A stretch of 64,000 nt of DNA from NCBI GenBank assembly GCA_020853395.1, contig JADYYY010000021.1, forward strand, positions 1 to 64,000. Direction: 5' to 3'. The notes under the pieces were generated by a model, which saw only the letters and a list, made by a program, of their open reading frames with translations, did not search any database and was not told the origin of the DNA. Positions within the stretch are counted from its first letter, which is position 1. Each line of letters begins with the position of its first letter. Source of the stretch: Acidobacteriota bacterium (GTDB lineage: Bacteria; Acidobacteriota; Vicinamibacteria; Vicinamibacterales; SCN-69-37). This document shows, piece by piece, positions 4,688-29,231 of this stretch. Position numbers and translations under genes: made by a program.

Positions 4688-5456
4688 GTCGCTGACCAAC
4701 GTCGTCACGATTGCCGGCAAGGAGCTGCGCGGCTACTTCGCCTCACCCGTCGCCTGGGTGACGATGGGGCTGTTCGCGGTGCTGTTCGGCTGGTTCTACA
4801 ACGTGCACCTCGACTACTTCGCGCGGGCGGCGATGCGCACGCAGTTCGGCCCGCCGCCGCCGCAGAACGTCAACAACGACATGATTCGGCCGCTGCTGCA
4901 GAACGCCAGCGTGCTCATGCTCTTCCTCCTGCCGATGATCACGATGCGGACCTACTCGGAGGAGAAGCGCTCGGGGACGATCGAGCTGCTCCTCACGGCG
5001 CCGGTGACCGACGTCGAGATCATTCTCGGCAAGTTCCTCGGCGTGGTCGGCCTGTACCTCGGCCTGCTGGGCGTCACGCTGCTCTACGTGCTGCTGCTGT
5101 TCGGCGTGGGATCGCCCGAGTGGCGGCCGCTCATCTCCGGCTACCTCGGCCTGCTGCTGCTCGGCGGGTGCTTCATCTCGGCGGGCCTGTTCATCTCGAG
5201 CACGACGAAGAACCAGATGGTGGCGGGCGCCGCGACGTTCGTCGTCTCGCTGATGTTCTGGATCATCAGTTGGTTCGCCGACAGCGCCGGTCCCACGCTC
5301 GGTCCAATCCTGAACTACCTGTCCGTCACGCAGCACTTCGACGACTTCGGCAAGGGCGTGATCGACACGTCGCACGTGGTGTACTACCTGAGTTTCATTC
5401 TGTTCGGGCTGTTCCTGACGCTGAAGTCGGTGGACACCGAGCGGTGGAGAGGTTAG
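4680..5456 (+). CDS. ABC-2 type permease (GldF-like)
   Basis: A 258-residue membrane protein with about six hydrophobic segments, first near residues 23-40 (WVTMGLFAVLFGWFY) and last at the C-terminus (VVYYLSFILFGLFLTL). The RTYSEEKRSGTIELLLTAP motif (about 95-115) is diagnostic of ABC-2 permeases of the GldF/NosY group. The start overlaps the ATPase stop, so the subunits are co-translated, and GGAGAGG near its own 3' end is the ribosome binding site of the following gldG-like gene. Confidence 0.87.
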   Translation: MRRSLTNVVTIAGKELRGYFASPVAWVTMGLFAVLFGWFYNVHLDYFARAAMRTQFGPPPPQNVNNDMIRPLLQNASVLMLFLLPMITMRTYSEEKRSGTIELLLTAPVTDVEIILGKFLGVVGLYLGLLGVTLLYVLLLFGVGSPEWRPLISGYLGLLLLGGCFISAGLFISSTTKNQMVAGAATFVVSLMFWIISWFADSAGPTLGPILNYLSVTQHFDDFGKGVIDTSHVVYYLSFILFGLFLTLKSVDTERWRG

Positions 5457-5458
5457 CC

Positions 5459-7033
5459 GTGAAACGACTCTTCGGAGCCATCGGCTGGCTCGGCGTCGTG
5501 CTCGTCGTCGCCGCCGTCGTCCTGCGCGTCGTGCGCCCGGAGGCGCCGCAGTGGTCCCAGCGCCTGGCCCTGGCCGGCCTGGTCGTGACGCTGCTGTACG
5601 GGCTCACGCAATGGCGCGACATCGCGCGCTCGTTCCAGGGGCGCAACGTCAAGTACGGCTCGATCGCGGCGTCGAGCGTCGTCCTGGTGCTGGGCATCCT
5701 CGTCGGGCTGAACTGGATCGCGTCACGCCAGAACAAGCGGTGGGACCTCACGGCGGCCGGACAGTTCTCGCTGTCCGACCAGACGAAGAAGATCCTCGCC
5801 GAGCTGAAGCAGCCCCTGACGATCCGCGCATTCTACACGGGCGTCGCCGATCAGTACCGGGATCGGCTGAAGGAGTACGAGTACGCCTCGTCGCAGGTCA
5901 GCACGGAGTTCATCGACGCCGAGCGGAATCCGCTCGAGGCGCAGAAGCGGGAGATCACGACCGTCCCGACCTTCCTGATCGAGTACGCCGGCCGCACCGA
6001 GCGCGCCTCGTCGGACGACGAGCAGAGCCTGACGAACGCGTTGAAGAAGGTCATCGAGGGCAAGGCCAAGAAGGCCTACTTCGTCCAGGGGCACGGCGAG
6101 AAGGACCCGACCGCGTCCGATCCGAACGGCTACAGCGGGATCGCCGATGCGCTGAAGACCGACAACTTCGACGTGGCGCCGCTCACGCTCGCGCAGCAAG
6201 GCAGCGTGCCGGACGACGCGACGCTCCTGGTAATCGCGGGCCCGAAGACGGATCTGCTGCAGGGCGAAATCGACGCCGTGAAGGCGTTCCTCGCGCGTGG
6301 CGGCAAGGTGGCGCTGCTCATCGATCCGCCGGACAAAGGCACGGCGCCCGACGTGAGCCGGCTCATCGCGCTCGCGGAGGAGTGGGGCGTGGACGTCGGC
6401 AACGATCTCGTCGTCGACGCGAGCGGGCTGGGCCAACTGATCGGAACGGACGCGTCGGTGCCGATCGCGATGCCGGTCGCGCACCCGATCACCGAGAACT
6501 TCCGGGTGATGACGGCGTTTCCGCTCGCGCGATCGGTCGCGCCGGTCGAGGGCGGCCGAGGCGGCCACGTGCCGCAGAAGGTGCTCGAGACCAGCCCGCA
6601 GAGCTGGGCCGAATCGGATCTCGAGAGCCTGTACTCGACGGGGCGGCCGTCGCGCGATCCGGACAAGGGCGACAAGGCGGGCCCCGTGTCGATCGCCGCG
6701 GCCGTGTCGGCGGCCGCGACCAATGCCCCGGCCGCGCCGGCTGATGCCGCGCCCGACGCGCCCAAGCCCGAGACGCGCGTCGTCGTCGTCGGCGACAGCG
6801 ACTTCGCGTCGAACCGTGCGCTCGGTATCCAGGGCAACCGCGACCTGTTCCTGAACATGGCGAATTGGCTGGCCCAGCAGGAGGATCTCATCGCGATCCG
6901 CCCGCGCAGCCCGGAGAGCCGCCCGCTGACGATGACCGCGGATCAGCAGGCGATGGTGTTCTGGTTCACGATGGTGATCGTGCCGTTGCTGCTCATCGGC
7001 AACGGCGTGCGGGTCTGGTGGAAGAAGCGGTAA
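5459..7033 (+). CDS. GldG-like ABC transporter auxiliary membrane protein
   Basis: A 524-residue protein with three N-terminal transmembrane helices (about 5-25, 37-53, 66-86), a large periplasmic domain of the ABC_transp_aux type (QFSLSDQTKKIL, FYTGVADQYRDRL, GHGEKDP, VIAGPKTDLLQGEIDAVKAF) and a C-terminal helix followed by WWKKR. The family resembles a glutamine-amidotransferase fold without enzymatic residues and accompanies GldA/GldF exporters. The GTG at 5459 is chosen because GGAGAGG lies 6 nt before it; a longer open frame to 5120 overlaps the permease and is not used. An Ala/Pro-rich insertion (about residues 400-440) is a low-complexity linker. Confidence 0.85.
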   Translation: MKRLFGAIGWLGVVLVVAAVVLRVVRPEAPQWSQRLALAGLVVTLLYGLTQWRDIARSFQGRNVKYGSIAASSVVLVLGILVGLNWIASRQNKRWDLTAAGQFSLSDQTKKILAELKQPLTIRAFYTGVADQYRDRLKEYEYASSQVSTEFIDAERNPLEAQKREITTVPTFLIEYAGRTERASSDDEQSLTNALKKVIEGKAKKAYFVQGHGEKDPTASDPNGYSGIADALKTDNFDVAPLTLAQQGSVPDDATLLVIAGPKTDLLQGEIDAVKAFLARGGKVALLIDPPDKGTAPDVSRLIALAEEWGVDVGNDLVVDASGLGQLIGTDASVPIAMPVAHPITENFRVMTAFPLARSVAPVEGGRGGHVPQKVLETSPQSWAESDLESLYSTGRPSRDPDKGDKAGPVSIAAAVSAAATNAPAAPADAAPDAPKPETRVVVVGDSDFASNRALGIQGNRDLFLNMANWLAQQEDLIAIRPRSPESRPLTMTADQQAMVFWFTMVIVPLLLIGNGVRVWWKKR

Positions 7034-21114: not shown

Positions 21115-22338
21115 CTACTCGATTGATCCTGTGGGCCCCGGCGACGTCAGCGCCGCGCGCAGCCGGTGCGCGATTTCGTTCAAGAACACGTCGGGCGCCA
21201 CGGCGATGGCGCCCTGCGCCATCGCCGGCGTGCCTCCGCCCCGGCCGCCCGATCGGCTCAAGACGTCCTTCAGCAACGCCGCCGCGTCGAGCGCCGTCCC
21301 CGCGCTCGACGCCACCACGACCGGCGTCGGCGTGCCGCGGCCGGCGAGCGCGGCAATGGTTCCCGATTCTGATACGACAGCGGAGGCCAGACCTTTCAGC
21401 GCCGCGCCTTCCAGGCCCGGCTCGCTCCTCAGGACGACACGACACGCGCCGATGATCTCGGCGGATCGCCGCAGCTCGGCCGCGCGGAACGCCGCCAGCT
21501 CCTCGTGCGCGCTCCGCAGCGCCCGCGTCGCCTCCCTGAGCTCCGCGTGCATGCGCTCGATCGCCGTGCCGATCTCCTCGACCGGCACCGAGAGGGTGCG
21601 CGTGGCGGCGCCGACGACGTCGCGCGATCGCCGATGCGATGCGAGCGCCCGGATGCCGCAGATGAACGTCACGCGCGTGGCACCCTTGAACCGTTCTGTC
21701 TGCGCGATCGCAATCTGCCCCACCATGCCGGTTCGCGCGACGTGCGTCCCGCCGCACGCCGACAGGTCGAAATCCTCGACCTCCACGAGCCTCAGCAGGC
21801 CGGTGCGCACCGGCTCCTTGCGCAGCGGCAGCCTCGCGGCCTCCTCGGCCGTCGCGAACCGCACCGTCACGGGCCGGTCGTCCCAGATCACCGCGTTCGC
21901 TTCCATCTCGGCGCGGGCGCACTCCTCGACGGTGACGTCGCGCGCCAGATCGATCGTCGAAACCATCGTGCCCATGTGGAAGCTGACCGTGCGCACGCCA
22001 GCGAGCCGGTCGAATGCCGCCGACAGCACGTGCTGGCCCGTGTGCTGCTGCATGTGGTCGAGGCGCCGCGGCCAGTCGATCTCCCCGCGCACGGTGCGTC
22101 CGGGCTTGAGCAACCGATCGACGACGTGCACGACGTCGCCGTCGTCCGTCTCGCCGACCTCCAGCACCGCCGCGTCGCCCAGCCGCCCCATGTCGAACGG
22201 CTGGCCTCCGGACGCCGGATAGAACGCCGACTGGTCGAGGCGCGCGAGCATGCGGCCATCCGCGGCGCGCTCGCACTCCCGCACGATCGCGTCGAACGAT
22301 CGAAGCGTCTGCTCGCCGTAGTAGAGACGAGTCGTCAT
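21115..22338 (-). CDS. Free-standing alanyl-tRNA editing protein (AlaX with DHHA1)
   Basis: This 407-residue protein resembles the editing half of alanyl-tRNA synthetase and probably hydrolyses mischarged Ser- or Gly-tRNA(Ala). The editing zinc site is present: HTGQH (99-103) and CGGTH (195-199). The C-terminal part from about 260 is a coiled coil plus a DHHA1 domain ending with the glycine-rich SGGRGGG segment. No aminoacylation domain exists. The ATG overlaps the queC stop by 4 nt, so it is coupled to the queuosine genes. Confidence 0.87.
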   Translation of the reverse strand: MTTRLYYGEQTLRSFDAIVRECERAADGRMLARLDQSAFYPASGGQPFDMGRLGDAAVLEVGETDDGDVVHVVDRLLKPGRTVRGEIDWPRRLDHMQQHTGQHVLSAAFDRLAGVRTVSFHMGTMVSTIDLARDVTVEECARAEMEANAVIWDDRPVTVRFATAEEAARLPLRKEPVRTGLLRLVEVEDFDLSACGGTHVARTGMVGQIAIAQTERFKGATRVTFICGIRALASHRRSRDVVGAATRTLSVPVEEIGTAIERMHAELREATRALRSAHEELAAFRAAELRRSAEIIGACRVVLRSEPGLEGAALKGLASAVVSESGTIAALAGRGTPTPVVVASSAGTALDAAALLKDVLSRSGGRGGGTPAMAQGAIAVAPDVFLNEIAHRLRAALTSPGPTGSIE

Positions 22339-23036
22339 CGCCCGGCTCCGGACTGCACCCCGTTCACGATCAGCGGATCCGGGATGCCGGCGTCCGCGAA
22401 CCCCCGCGCCCTAAGCTGACAACTGTCGCACCGGCCGCAAGGCGTGCCGTCGGGACGCGGGTCGTAGCAGCTATGGGTCACACTGTAGTCCACGCCCAGC
22501 TCCTGCCCAAGGCGGATGATGCCCGCTTTGGTCAAGTGCTGCAGCGGCGCCCACACTCGCAGCGGGCGACCGCTCACGCCAGCCCGGGTCGCGAGGCTCG
22601 CCAGATACTCGAACGCCGCGATGAACTCCGGGCGGCAGTCCGGATAGCCCGAGTAGTCCAGGGCGTTGACGCCGATCACGATCCGCTCGGCCGACAGCAC
22701 TTCGGCCCATGCCATCGCGAGCGACAGGAGGACGGTGTTTCTCGCCGGCACGTAGGTGGACGGGATGTCGGTGGCGTCGAGAGAGCGATCCTTGGGCACC
22801 TCGCTCGTGCCCAGCAGGGCGGATCCGCCGAACGCGGCGAGGTTCACGTCGAGCTCGACGTGCTTCGCACACCCGAGCGCTCCCGCGACCCGACGCGCCG
22901 CCTCGATCTCCTGCGCGTGGGTCTGCCCGTACCGGACCGTGAGCGCGTACAGCGTCCAGCCCTCACGCCTGGCCAACGCGGCCGCCGTCGTCGAATCCAG
23001 GCCGCCGGAGAGGAGCACTACGGCTGAACCGGCCAT
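22335..23036 (-). CDS. queC: 7-cyano-7-deazaguanine synthase
   Basis: QueC converts 7-carboxy-7-deazaguanine plus ammonia and ATP to preQ0 in queuosine synthesis. The 233-residue protein has the PP-loop motif SGGLDS (10-15), TDIPSTYVPARNT and the C-terminal zinc-binding cysteines HSCYDPRPDGTPCGRCDSC. The ATG at 23036 overlaps the queE stop as TGATG; a longer in-frame opening to 23120 would add 28 residues overlapping queE and is rejected. The order queE-queC-alaX is one coupled unit; queA is 15 kb away. Confidence 0.93.
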   Translation of the reverse strand: MAGSAVVLLSGGLDSTTAAALARREGWTLYALTVRYGQTHAQEIEAARRVAGALGCAKHVELDVNLAAFGGSALLGTSEVPKDRSLDATDIPSTYVPARNTVLLSLAMAWAEVLSAERIVIGVNALDYSGYPDCRPEFIAAFEYLASLATRAGVSGRPLRVWAPLQHLTKAGIIRLGQELGVDYSVTHSCYDPRPDGTPCGRCDSCQLRARGFADAGIPDPLIVNGVQSGAGR

Positions 23037-23677
23037 CACACGCCTCGCGTCTCGGGACTCCAGATGTACTTGTGCGCCTGGAGCTGGAGCCGCGCCGGCA
23101 CGCGGGCGTCGAGCATCCACCGCGCGAGCAGGTCCGGCGCCAGCACGCCGTGCACCGGCGAGAAGTGCACGGCCGCGACACGCGCGGCCAGATCATGGCG
23201 CCGCAAGACGTCCGCGGCGTACTCGAAGTCCGTCCGGTCGGCGATCACGAACTTCACCTCGTCATGGCGAGACAACTGGTCGAGATTCGCCCAGTGCATC
23301 CGTGCGGCTTCGCCGCTGCCCGGACACTTCACGTCGAGGATCGCGACGACGGCGTCCGGAACCTCGTCGATCGGCCGATGGCCGCCCGTCTCGAGCAGCA
23401 CCTCGTAGCCCTCGGCGACGAGACGCGACAGGAGCGCCGGCGCATCGGGCTGGAGCAGCGGTTCGCCTCCCGTGACTTCCACGAGCCGGCAGCCGTACGC
23501 CGCCACCGCGGCCAGCACGTCGTCGATCGACATCTTGCGCCCGCCGGTGAAGGCATACGGCGTGTCGCACCAGGCGCAGCGCAGGTCACACGCCGTGAGC
23601 CGCACGAACACGCACGGCCGGCCCGTGTGGGTCGATTCGCCCTGAATCGACTGGTAGATCTCGTGGACGGTCAGCAC
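23036..23677 (-). CDS. queE: 7-carboxy-7-deazaguanine synthase (radical SAM)
   Basis: QueE rearranges carboxytetrahydropterin to 7-carboxy-7-deazaguanine. The 213-residue protein begins MLTVHEIYQSIQGEST, the usual QueE N-terminus, and carries the radical-SAM cluster motif CDLRCAWC (Cys30, 34, 37) followed by TGGEPLLQ. The GTG at 23677 is chosen over an upstream TTG (23686): a TAGAAT hexamer at 23686-23691 ends 8 nt before it and overlaps the TTG, fitting leaderless transcription and the family N-terminus. It is divergent from the DUF72 gene, whose TACGAT lies 33 bp away. Confidence 0.92.
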   Translation of the reverse strand: MLTVHEIYQSIQGESTHTGRPCVFVRLTACDLRCAWCDTPYAFTGGRKMSIDDVLAAVAAYGCRLVEVTGGEPLLQPDAPALLSRLVAEGYEVLLETGGHRPIDEVPDAVVAILDVKCPGSGEAARMHWANLDQLSRHDEVKFVIADRTDFEYAADVLRRHDLAARVAAVHFSPVHGVLAPDLLARWMLDARVPARLQLQAHKYIWSPETRGV

Positions 23678-25970: not shown

Positions 25971-26216
25971 TCAGTGCCCGTGGCTTCGGCAGTAGTTGCA
26001 GTGGTTACAGGATGCACCCGGTTCGATGACGCAGGCGTCGCCAGTGTTCACGAGCGTGATGTACACGTCCTGGCTGGGATGGCCCGCGCGATCCGCGGGT
26101 CCCACGTGCACAGCCGCTTCGGCAGGCTCGCGGACGTCGGGCGGACGAGACGTGCGCTCGGCGAGCCGGCGCGTGACGAGGTCGCGAACGAGCGCGCGAA
26201 GTTCCTGATCGTTCAT
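25971..26216 (-). CDS. Small BMC-associated protein with helix and CxxCxxC tail
   Basis: An 81-residue protein I cannot name. Residues 1-20 (starting MNDQELRALVRDLV) form an amphipathic helix like the encapsulation peptides of microcompartment cargo. A Pro/Ala/Arg-rich linker (21-48) follows, then DVYITLVNTGDACVIEPG and a C-terminal cysteine cluster, Cys70-x2-Cys73-x2-Cys76, with Cys62 and several His nearby. The cysteines could hold a metal or Fe-S cluster. AGGTGG stands 5 nt before the ATG. It is the last gene of the BMC cluster, 74 bp after the third pentamer gene. A cargo role is inference from its layout and position. Confidence 0.75.
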   Translation of the reverse strand: MNDQELRALVRDLVTRRLAERTSRPPDVREPAEAAVHVGPADRAGHPSQDVYITLVNTGDACVIEPGASCNHCNYCRSHGH

Positions 26217-26290
26217 TCACGCCACCTGCACCGAAAGCCGCTCGAGTCGCCGCGCCCGAAGCGGGGACACGTCGAGCCCAGCTTGCGCGA

Positions 26291-26575
26291 TCAATCCGCC
26301 GCGGGGGGCGCGAGGTCCACCCGGTCGACGATACCGATCACCGCGGCGTCGACTGGCGCAGCCTTCTTCCGGAGCGCCTCCCCGGCCGCGCGTCCTTCGA
26401 GGACGAGCAGCACTCTCTCGCTGACGCCGGCACCCACCGAGTCGATGGCGAGCAGCGGCGCGCCGCGCGGCGCGTCATCGGCGGCGAGCGGCTGCACGAG
26501 CAGCAACTTCGCGCCGACGAGCGCGCGGTGTTTCTGGGTCGAGACGAGCGTGCCGATGACGCGGCCAATCTGCAC
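26291..26575 (-). CDS. BMC vertex protein, EutN/CcmL family (copy 3)
   Basis: A 94-residue single-domain BMC-P protein; such proteins form pentamers that cap the vertices of icosahedral microcompartment shells. Typical segments are the N-terminal RVIGTLVSTQKH, LVGAKLLLVQPL, LLAIDSVGAGVSERVLLV and the C-terminal VDAAVIGIVDRVDL. It begins with GTG, 9 bp after the second pentamer gene. The C-terminal extension LAPPAAD is unique among the three copies. The three paralogues differ enough to imply distinct vertex positions or regulation rather than recent duplication. Confidence 0.92.
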   Translation of the reverse strand: MQIGRVIGTLVSTQKHRALVGAKLLLVQPLAADDAPRGAPLLAIDSVGAGVSERVLLVLEGRAAGEALRKKAAPVDAAVIGIVDRVDLAPPAAD

Positions 26576-26584
26576 GCGGCCTCC

Positions 26585-26857
26585 TCAGCTCGCCTCGACG
26601 TCCCAGTGATCGACGATCCCGATCACGCAGGCGTCCACGGGCGTCTCCGCCGGGAGGAACGGGTAGGACGCCTCGCGTCCCCGCACGAAGAAGACGTGCT
26701 CGCCGGCGCCCGCGCCCGCCGCGTCCACCGCGACGAGCGCGCGGCCGATCGGCGTGCGGTCGGGCCGCACGGGCTGGAGCACCAGCAGCTTGTGGCCGGA
26801 GAGCGCGGGCTGCTTCACGGTGGACACGACGTCGCCGACGACGCGCGCAATTTGCAC
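26585..26857 (-). CDS. BMC vertex protein, EutN/CcmL family (copy 2)
   Basis: A 90-residue BMC-P vertex protein with the same fold markers: RVVGDVVSTVKQ, LSGHKLLVLQPV, LVAVDAAGAGAGEHVFFV and VDACVIGIVDHWDV. It starts with GTG only 3 bp after the first pentamer gene. It carries a Cys in the last strand (VDACVIG) and an aromatic-rich loop (REASYPFLP) in the place where the other copies have short charged loops; these loops line the outer face of pentamers in known structures. Confidence 0.92.
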   Translation of the reverse strand: MQIARVVGDVVSTVKQPALSGHKLLVLQPVRPDRTPIGRALVAVDAAGAGAGEHVFFVRGREASYPFLPAETPVDACVIGIVDHWDVEAS

Positions 26858-26860
26858 GGG

Positions 26861-27130
26861 TCAGTCCTTCAGGTGGACCTGATCGATGACGCCGACGATG
26901 GCGGCGTCGACCGGACAGTCCTTGAGGCCGGCTGCCATCCTCGCCGAGCTTCCGCTGACGATCAGCACGGTCTCGCCGACGCCGGCGTCGACGGTGTCGA
27001 CCGCGACGAGATAGGCGCCGTCGAGGTTGCCCGCCGGGTCGACCGGTCTGGCCAGGAGCAGCTTGCTGCTGACGAGGCGTTCGTCCTTGCGCGTCGCCAC
27101 GACCGTCCCGACCACCTTCGCGAGAATCAT
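26861..27130 (-). CDS. BMC vertex protein, EutN/CcmL family (copy 1)
   Basis: An 89-residue BMC-P protein, first of the three pentamer genes after the hexamer gene. Markers are KVVGTVVATRKD, LVSSKLLLARPVDP, LVAVDTVDAGVGETVLIVSGSSAR and VDAAIVGVIDQVHLKD. It starts at ATG (27130), 19 bp after the BMC-H stop. The SGSSAR loop is the EutN/CcmL consensus and makes this the most canonical of the three copies. Confidence 0.93.
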   Translation of the reverse strand: MILAKVVGTVVATRKDERLVSSKLLLARPVDPAGNLDGAYLVAVDTVDAGVGETVLIVSGSSARMAAGLKDCPVDAAIVGVIDQVHLKD

Positions 27131-27149: not shown

Positions 27150-27434
27150 CTACTTCGCGGCTTTGCCGATGGGCAGCACGTCCTCGAGGTTGACGTGCGG
27201 GCGCGGGATCACGTGCACGGACACGAGCTCGCCGACGCGGCGAGCCGCCGCCGCTCCGGCGTCGGTGGCCGCCTTCACCGCCGCGACGTCGCCGCGCACG
27301 ATCGCCGTGACGTACCCGGCCCCGATCTTCTCCCAGCCGACCAATGTGACTTTCGCGGCCTTGACCATGGCGTCGGCCGCTTCGATCATCGCGACCAGCC
27401 CTTTCGTCTCGACCATTCCCAGTGCCTCACCCAT
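27150..27434 (-). CDS. BMC hexameric shell protein (BMC-H, PduA/CcmK family)
   Basis: A 94-residue single BMC domain protein that forms the hexagonal tiles of the shell facets. It opens [24 protein letters not shown] and has the pore segment [18 protein letters not shown]; the central pore residue is Ala39 where PduA has Ser, so the pore is slightly less polar. The ATG at 27434 is chosen because GGAGG lies 6 nt before it; the in-frame GTG at 27449 overlaps that Shine-Dalgarno. It lies 19 bp after the aldolase stop. It is the only hexamer gene in the window and there is no BMC-T trimer. Confidence 0.94.
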
Positions 27435-27453
27435 TGCCGGCCTCCACACGCAC

Positions 27454-28323
27454 CTACGCCTTGATCAACTCGTCGACGACCTCGTCGATGAGCGCCGTCA
27501 GTTGCGCGTATGTTAGCCGAATCTCGCGGTTGTCGTCTGCTTCGCCGGCGGCTGCCGGTCGCGAGGGGACGAGCCGCGCACCGGGGGCGGACGGCGCGAC
27601 GAGCGTCTGGCAGGCCAGATCGCGCGCAGGGGCGTCTGGCGCAGGCGCGGGACAGATCGGCGCCGGTGCCGCGATGCCGTAGCGCCCGCGAAGGTCCTGC
27701 AGCCGCTGGACCTCCTCGCGCGAGAGCAGGCGCTCGCGGCCGAGCTGCCGCGCGACGAGGCTGATCTTCGCGAAGTGCTCGATCGTCTCCATCTTGTAGT
27801 ACGCGGCGAACAGGTCGCGGCCGAGCGCCAGCGCGCCGTGGTTGGCGAGCAGCAGGCCGTCGTGCGCCTTGACGTAGGGCGCCACGGCATCGGCCAGCTC
27901 CGTCGTCGACGGCGTCCCGTACTCGGCAATCGGGATGCTGCCGAGCGTCGTGACCACCTCCGCCAGCACCGCGCGATCCAGCGGGATACCGGCGACGGCA
28001 AAGCCCGTCGAGAGCGGCGGATGTGCGTGCACCACGGCGCCGACGTCCGCGCGCTGCCGGTAGACGACGAGGTGCATCAGGATCTCGGAGGACGGCTTGC
28101 GGCCGGGCGCGCCCGACACGAGCGTGCCGTCGAGATCGGTCACGACCATCATCTCGCGCGTCATGAACCCTTTCGACACGCTCGACGGCGTCATCAACAG
28201 GCGGTCGGGCCCGAGACGGACGCTGATGTTCCCGTCGTTCGACGCGACGAACCCGCGTTCCCACAGCCGGCGGCCGACCTCGACGATGTCGGCGCGCAGT
28301 GACTCGAGCTCGTCAGCGCTCAC
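27454..28323 (-). CDS. Class II aldolase with C-terminal encapsulation peptide
   Basis: A 289-residue enzyme of the FucA/RhaD/AraD family that splits a ketose 1-phosphate; in sugar-degrading microcompartments it yields DHAP and L-lactaldehyde from fuculose- or rhamnulose-1-phosphate. Catalytic Glu80 (KPSSEILMH) and zinc ligands His99, His101 (VVHAHP) and His162 (NHG) are present. The aldolase domain ends near 217; a Pro/Ala linker (218-265) leads to an amphipathic helix at 270-289 (ending [12 protein letters not shown]), the classic layout of a cargo encapsulation peptide. The GTG start has GGGAGG 5 nt upstream. First gene of the BMC cluster; the exact sugar is inference. Confidence 0.9.
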
Positions 28324-28341: not shown

Positions 28342-28617
28342 TCACGACGAACGCGCCGTCCGGTCGGCTGCCGCCAGCCACTGGTCGCGGCACGTCGTCG
28401 AGCAGAACGCGTGGCCTCCGGCCTTCACCGCCAGACGCTCGGCCACGAACGTGCCGCACTGCGGGTCGCGCACGAGCTGACCGCCGCTACGCTCGCCGCC
28501 CGACACGCGAGTCCGACGCGTCGCCGCGATCTGACGCTCGGCGAACCAGCGGAGCACGATCCGGACGATCAGCAGGATGATCAGGATCCGGACGGCCCAG
28601 AGCAGGCCCATCATCAT
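28342..28617 (-). CDS. PP0621-like single-helix protein with cysteine motif
   Basis: A 91-residue protein with one transmembrane helix (about 4-24, LLWAVRILIILLIVRIVLRW) and a C-terminal cytoplasmic segment LVRDPQCGTFVAERLA...HAFCSTTCRDQW, a TRASH/YHS-like treble-clef pattern with three cysteines, as in the PP0621 family. Function unknown; metal binding is plausible. Of three consecutive ATG codons, 28617 is chosen because it overlaps the TPR stop (ATGA) and stands 9 nt after GGAGG. The BMC aldolase follows 18 bp later, but a functional link is not evident. Confidence 0.7.
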   Translation of the reverse strand: MMMGLLWAVRILIILLIVRIVLRWFAERQIAATRRTRVSGGERSGGQLVRDPQCGTFVAERLAVKAGGHAFCSTTCRDQWLAAADRTARSS

Positions 28618-29231
28618 CGCCCCGAACCTCCGGCGGTGTCGGCGGCGTGCGCCGATCGCAGGCCGTCGAGCCCCTGCTGCGCGCGGCGGCCCTCCTCGCT
28701 CGCCGGCGCGATGGCGACGACCTGCTCCCACGATCGCTGCGCGCCCGCCAGATCGGACTTGCCGAACGCCCGGATGATGCCCTGGTTGAGCAGCGTCTTG
28801 AGGTGCCGCGGATCGAGCTTGAGCGAGTAGTCGATCTGCGCGAGCGCGCGATCCGCCTGGTTCGAGTAGTAGTACGCCACGGCCAGGTCGGTGCTGACGT
28901 TCACGTTCTTCTCGTCGAGCTGGAGCGCTGCTTCGTACCAGGTGATGGCGCGATCGTACCGCTCGGCGTCGAAGTACAGGTTGCCCAGCTCGGTGCGCAC
29001 GGCGGCGTTCTTCGGATCCGCGTTCGCCTGCCGCTCGAGCTCCGCCGCCCTGGCGGCATCGAACGGCGGCGGCTGCGACGTTCCCGACGCCGCACCACCC
29101 GCCGGAACAGCGGCCTGTGGAGCCGGCGCGGCCGGAACCGGCGCGCCGCTCTGCTGACTGCCAAGGATCCAGCCGACGAGCAAGCCGAAGAGCACGCCGG
29201 AGACCGCGAAGGCCAGGGAGTCTCGCTTCAT
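28614..29231 (-). CDS. Membrane-anchored TPR protein
   Basis: A 205-residue protein with an N-terminal transmembrane anchor (residues 7-24, FAVSGVLFGLLVGWILG), a Pro/Ala-rich linker (27-58) and three to four tetratricopeptide repeats: AAVRTELGNLYFDAERYDRAITWYEAAL, NVSTDLAVAYYYSNQADRALAQIDYSL and LKTLLNQGIIRAFGKSDLAGAQRSWEQV. It probably mediates protein contacts at the membrane; no partner can be named. It is coupled to the PP0621-like gene and separated from pdxJ by a heptamer-repeat spacer. Confidence 0.75.
   Translation of the reverse strand: MKRDSLAFAVSGVLFGLLVGWILGSQQSGAPVPAAPAPQAAVPAGGAASGTSQPPPFDAARAAELERQANADPKNAAVRTELGNLYFDAERYDRAITWYEAALQLDEKNVNVSTDLAVAYYYSNQADRALAQIDYSLKLDPRHLKTLLNQGIIRAFGKSDLAGAQRSWEQVVAIAPASEEGRRAQQGLDGLRSAHAADTAGGSGR

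Follow-up and report, generated by a model that had tools for sequence, protein, structure and literature searches.

What is a protein of 81 residues, which begins like an encapsulation peptide (EP) and ends in a cluster of cysteines, doing as the last gene of a bacterial microcompartment (BMC) operon? The question arises from a 64,000-nucleotide stretch of acidobacterial DNA (hereafter, the window), in which a reading of the sequence alone had proposed such an open reading frame at 25971-26216. The frame is present on the minus strand: it starts with ATG at 26216, ends in a stop codon at 25971-25973, and has a putative ribosome-binding site, AGGTGG (26222..26227, minus strand), 6-11 nucleotides 5' of the ATG. 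The complete sequence of its product, here called the small protein (SP), is MNDQELRALVRDLVTRRLAERTSRPPDVREPAEAAVHVGPADRAGHPSQDVYITLVNTGDACVIEPGASCNHCNYCRSHGH.

A small gene at the end of an ACI-type BMC operon

SP is a real gene under purifying selection, since homologues occur in 12 of the 14 genomes of the same GTDB family and dN/dS is about 0.13-0.23 across four homologue pairs. It is last in an operon with the order class II aldolase, BMC-H, three BMC-P genes and SP, all on the minus strand. The aldolase, the ACI signature enzyme (27454..28323; PF00596, E 8.9e-50), carries a C-terminal EP-like helix with a hydrophobic moment at P 0.005 on a 16-mer. The BMC-H shell protein (27150..27449; PF00936, E 3e-30) is followed by the first (26861..27130; PF03319, E 7.4e-31), second (26585..26857; PF03319, E 1.5e-27) and third BMC-P (26291..26575; PF03319, E 5.5e-29), the third lying directly upstream of SP with a gap of 74 nt. 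The whole genome holds exactly three PF03319 and three PF00936 genes, and an AldDH is encoded on a satellite locus (G000:C3:154247) beside the second BMC-H.

In the passages of Sutter et al. 2021 that bear on it (PMC8217296), the ACI type of BMC is described only from Acidobacteria, and 'several proteins of unknown function' are counted among its contents; SP is probably one of these. The locus matches this type in its tagged class II aldolase, BMC-P triplet, BMC-H, satellite AldDH and acidobacterial host, and differs from it, as described in those passages, in missing the hydroxyacid dehydrogenase. In relatives, the gene for this enzyme lies between SP and nth; it is absent from the locus here, with no close copy elsewhere in the genome, a pattern that we read as gene loss. 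A PduL-type phosphotransacylase (PF06130) was also looked for across the whole genome, and none was found.

Several other features of these loci deserve mention in their own right. Just upstream of the aldolase (28342-28731, minus strand) is a gene whose small, membrane-anchored product has a YHS-like Cys motif, DPQCGTFV...AFCSTTCRDQW. A distant ACI-like locus (L146, 5505-5765, minus strand) encodes a protein with a similar motif, DPVCETYV...YFCSEDCRRKH, upstream of its aldolase. The third BMC-H gene (L094, 5634-6032, minus strand) is solitary and far from both BMC loci, divergent from or close to a MerR-like regulator gene (5174-5644, plus strand). The ACI AldDH (L093, 6245-7966, plus strand; L131-L142) has no N-terminal EP and bears a C-terminal extension of about 100 residues, which ends in a conserved module containing an invariant Cys, FVCExDVRxAI...RTIITPxAR.

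Distribution of the SP family and its linkage to shell genes

Scans against Pfam and NCBIfam gave no Pfam family for SP and a sole, insignificant NCBIfam match, in agreement with the earlier failure to recognise a described family. A profile built from 33 SP sequences and searched in 396 Acidobacteriota genomes gave matches in 90 of them at E <= 0.05. For co-occurrence, a threshold of E < 0.001 was used, at which 87 genomes are SP-positive. The vertex-protein family PF03319 is found in 85 of these 87 genomes versus 164 of 396 overall (Fisher P ~2e-37, which overstates the number of independent events because the genomes are related). One exception, G147, is 67% complete and has its SP at the edge of a contig; the other, G162 (L119), is a false match with neither tail nor BMC. 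A match in G062 was likewise judged a false positive, having no tail and no BMC. Within the order to which the window belongs, SP occurs in 37 of 40 BMC-positive genomes and in neither of the two BMC-negative ones. No SP was detectable in 79 BMC-positive Acidobacteriota genomes, three of them in the order, so not every BMC of this kind requires SP.

The linkage is equally tight at the level of gene order. Among 83 genuine SP loci (a few genomes being counted twice), 80 have BMC-P immediately upstream on the same strand, at a median end-to-end distance of 260 nt; in two of the remaining three the shell genes lie about 28 kb off, and the third is at a contig edge. In L065 and L069, from a distant acidobacterial family (f31), SP lies about 28 kb from the shell genes and beside a pdxJ-like match. 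ACI-like loci that lack SP (L144, 2136-3389, minus strand; L146; L147; L151) have the hydroxyacid dehydrogenase or unrelated genes directly after BMC-P. GTDB species genomes were scanned with the pattern C[DN]HCGYC[KR], which could miss divergent relatives outside the phylum; the matches were all in acidobacteria-labelled MAGs, save two labelled Acidimicrobiia, both with the same gene order at the SP locus.

These counts confirm SP as a real, previously unnamed family encoded beside ACI-type BMC shell genes. The sequence-only reading had held that homologues found mostly outside BMC loci would speak against it; they are instead almost exclusively within such loci.

The N-terminal helix and linker

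EPs are described as terminal helices of 15-20 residues with alternating hydrophobic and hydrophilic pairs, joined to a disordered linker (PMC8217296, PMC12108088, PMC12339742). The alternating-pair pattern is given for BMC signal sequences (PMC12108088), and the combination of terminal amphipathic helix and disordered linker appears also in PMC11157265 and PMC12339742. SP has the same arrangement of terminal helix and flexible linker. Its residues 1-20 (26157..26216, minus strand) make up the EP-like segment, where AlphaFold2 predicts a helix at 3-21 (block pLDDT 95/88), while residues 22-45 (26082..26153, minus strand) form a linker predicted at low confidence (pLDDT ~44-55). Across 29 divergent sequences, positions 6, 9, 10, 13, 14 and 18 are hydrophobic in 79-100%, and positions 2, 3, 7, 11 and 16 are polar. 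The linker varies in length (members from the GTDB family span 64-102 aa), and its family-wide composition of 20% Pro and 19% Ala bears out the Pro/Ala-rich linker that had been proposed. It is followed by a conserved H-[PSA]-S motif at residues 46-48 (26073..26081, minus strand), in which S48 is nearly invariant.

The predicted helix and the family register speak for the amphipathic helix claimed for this segment. The hydrophobic moment of the single SP sequence is not significantly higher than that of shuffles (P 0.35-0.89), but this test is without power here, since the PduP EP is not significant either (P 0.15-0.37). A PDB search with the same PduP peptide gave no match. The conserved register and the confidently predicted helix support a match to the published EP pattern, and it is quite probable that the helix functions as an EP. 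Alternatively, it may not target the lumen at all, and SP may be a cytosolic or outer-face factor, for example in positioning or regulation, that shares only the operon. Room for this is left by the fact that we infer the EP function, and by PduE, whose look-alike N-terminus does not target cargo (PMC12108088). Conservation of the EP register together with linkage to vertex-protein genes suits targeting better, and we consider a factor outside the lumen rather improbable.

The cysteine tail

Residues 62-81 (25974..26033, minus strand) form the tail CVIEPGASCNHCNYCRSHGH, a candidate metal site, which AlphaFold2 models with moderate confidence (pLDDT ~54-74). The CxxCxxC described earlier is borne out, with cysteines at positions 62, 70, 73 and 76. 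All genuine members end in C-x2-[E/D]-x4-5-C-x2-[C/S]-x2-C-x3-G-[H/F/Y/L]-stop, two of them with an additional residue ahead of the last Cys, so that the exact C-terminal end is itself conserved. Among 18,986 stop-terminated frames of the DNA examined, a loose version of the pattern has three occurrences that do not belong to the family. The cysteines are conserved, as the first reading required: C62, C70 and C76 are invariant, as is G80, and C73 is Ser in nine of 63 regular distinct tails. Among the most distant relatives, three have Asp in place of E65. In the nine Ser-bearing tails, a terminal His (five tails) or a Cys beside C70 (three tails) offers another potential ligand, but L112 has neither, so that a strict Cys4 site is not universal. 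A strict exchange of C73 for H81 as ligand was considered and rejected, on account of L112 and because the sampling is too small.

Metal binding by the tail is the probable reading. As to which metal, the Cys spacing of C-x7/8-C-x2-C-x2-C (x7 in its order, x8 in part of the f31 members) closely resembles the zinc motif of QueC, C(x)8CxxCxxC (PMC13329287). The four cysteines have the same order and nearly the same spacing, followed a few residues on by Gly-[Phe/Leu], although SP lacks the QueC domain (PF06508) and the likeness is one of motif only. QueC itself is encoded in the same window (22335-23120). A second likeness is to the structural-zinc loop of MDR alcohol dehydrogenases (EPxxxCxxCxxCx7C), whose EPxxxCxxCxxC string SP shares. 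In the NCBIfam scan 6 of 33 members match this loop weakly (E down to 0.025), and it is the only PDB match of SP, also weak (E 0.16). In contrast to these enzymes, the fourth Cys of SP lies upstream, the chain stops short of the position of theirs, and there is no MDR fold; Pfam gave no match to ADH_N or ADH zinc-binding domains, and a fold search with the AlphaFold2 model found no match. The QueC-like spacing and the recurrent match to the alcohol-dehydrogenase loop favour zinc over Fe-S, a preference that we hold with modest confidence, and the spacing suits a structural site of zinc type better than a redox carrier.

The tail might instead make SP an internal electron carrier or cluster scaffold, with three or four cysteines binding a [4Fe-4S] cluster that passes electrons inside the lumen or across the shell, in the way proposed for PduT/PduS and GrpU. 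A CxxCxxC with one further Cys also suits Fe-S, and the tails that have lost C73 retain three invariant cysteines, as many as form the [4Fe-4S] site of the QueC-related LarE (PMC13329287). Accessory FeS proteins are found in most GRM-type BMC loci (PMC6325248), and one of the 33 members matches Fer4_2 in the Pfam scan, the best Fer4-type match (E 0.7). Yet the similarities that recur are to zinc sites rather than ferredoxins, and SP, unlike ferredoxins, has no Pro after the distal Cys. Nor is there a redox partner, PduS-like or other, among the nearest genes around SP in the window, and the pathway enzymes seen (aldolase, AldDH and hydroxyacid dehydrogenase) need no Fe-S. We regard an electron carrier or scaffold as unlikely.

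Class II aldolases are a zinc-dependent family, and SP, with its metal-type tail, is encoded in one operon with such an enzyme; it might thus be a local metallochaperone that supplies or buffers zinc for the aldolase in the lumen. Most free-living class II aldolases are not known to need a chaperone, however, some loci with an aldolase (L144, L147, L151) lack SP, and the spacing of the tail fits structural rather than exchangeable zinc sites, which makes this role improbable.

Longer relatives

Relatives from other acidobacterial families (L102-L107, L109) are about 175-242 aa long and encoded directly after BMC-P. They combine an EP-like N-terminus and the same Cys tail with an extra region of about 100-150 residues between them, which has no significant Pfam match. 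PF15953 (PDU_like) was rejected as its identity, there being one weak match (E 0.16-0.29) and better PF15953 matches elsewhere in such genomes. As the long variants keep both tag and tail, these are the constant parts and the middle is optional. The same relatives could be taken to mean that a longer EP-domain-tail protein has dwindled to SP, a vestige with little function left. This is very unlikely, given the purifying selection seen in dN/dS, the conservation of the short form with invariant cysteines through the whole order, and the fact that short forms are also common in the more distant family f31.

Proposed role

We propose that SP would serve the ACI-type BMC as a small accessory protein of the lumen, without enzymatic activity of its own. 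The helix at its N-terminus, acting as an EP, would associate with the inner shell face and/or the EP-driven cargo condensate, and the flexible linker would bridge the gap to a tail that may fold round one metal ion, most likely Zn2+, as a tiny knuckle. This knuckle could dock a partner from the cargo, namely AldDH or the aldolase, or else the BMC-P vertex protein encoded next to SP. In favour of AldDH as a candidate is its presence in 13 of the 14 genomes of the family, and in favour of the adjacent BMC-P the conserved gene order. The hydroxyacid dehydrogenase as sole client was rejected: SP persists in genomes without that gene, including this one, and, being kept where the gene is lost, does not depend on the enzyme. 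SP may also be an adaptor that is needed since AldDH has no N-terminal EP of its own, against which stands a helix-like stretch in the C-terminal extension of AldDH.

A linker or assembly role is the better of the three offered by the sequence-only reading, the others being redox carrier and cluster scaffold. We prefer it because the spacing suits structural zinc and because known EP-bearing non-enzymatic BMC proteins act in assembly; on its own, we rate this role as plausible, at slightly less than an even chance. The reading as a whole, an EP-tagged accessory with a metal knuckle that serves as shell-cargo linker or assembly factor of the ACI BMC, is similarly placed, falling a little short of an even call. 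More tentatively still, SP may represent a novel class of BMC components: a mini-metalloprotein with an EP tag and, at its extreme C-terminus, a metal knuckle, which tethers cargo to shell in a metal-dependent way (or relays electrons within the lumen), and into which longer lineage variants insert a region between tag and knuckle; we put this forward as a possibility that is rather less likely than not to hold.

ACI BMCs are common in Acidobacteriota and little studied. SP offers a compact marker for them, carried by roughly half of the sampled genomes that have a BMC and, within its order, by nearly all. It is also a single small protein on which the idea that metal-dependent linkers organise metabolosomes can be examined. 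Should its tail be a docking tag, it could provide a very small module for cargo loading or tethering.

Comparison with known systems

PduT, PduS and GrpU resemble SP in having Cys-based metal-type sites in a BMC context, but they are shell proteins or large flavoproteins with clusters, and no similarity to SP was found. Closer in kind are PduM, the N-termini of PduB and EutQ, and CcmN, EP-bearing or EP-binding non-enzymes that link shell and cargo or aid assembly (PMC12108088, PMC12487888). Like these, SP is non-enzymatic and encoded in a BMC operon, with a terminal helix of the EP pattern and a flexible linker; it is much smaller than PduM or EutQ, and at the profile level the Pfam and NCBIfam scans of 33 members gave no PduM, EutQ or CcmN family. 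We know of no Cys metal tail on PduM, PduB, EutQ or CcmN, and to our knowledge a metal-type tail on an EP-tagged mini-protein is undescribed. The ACI locus with its uncharacterised proteins, and EP-tagged accessory proteins as a kind, were already known; the SP family itself has no name in Pfam or NCBIfam.
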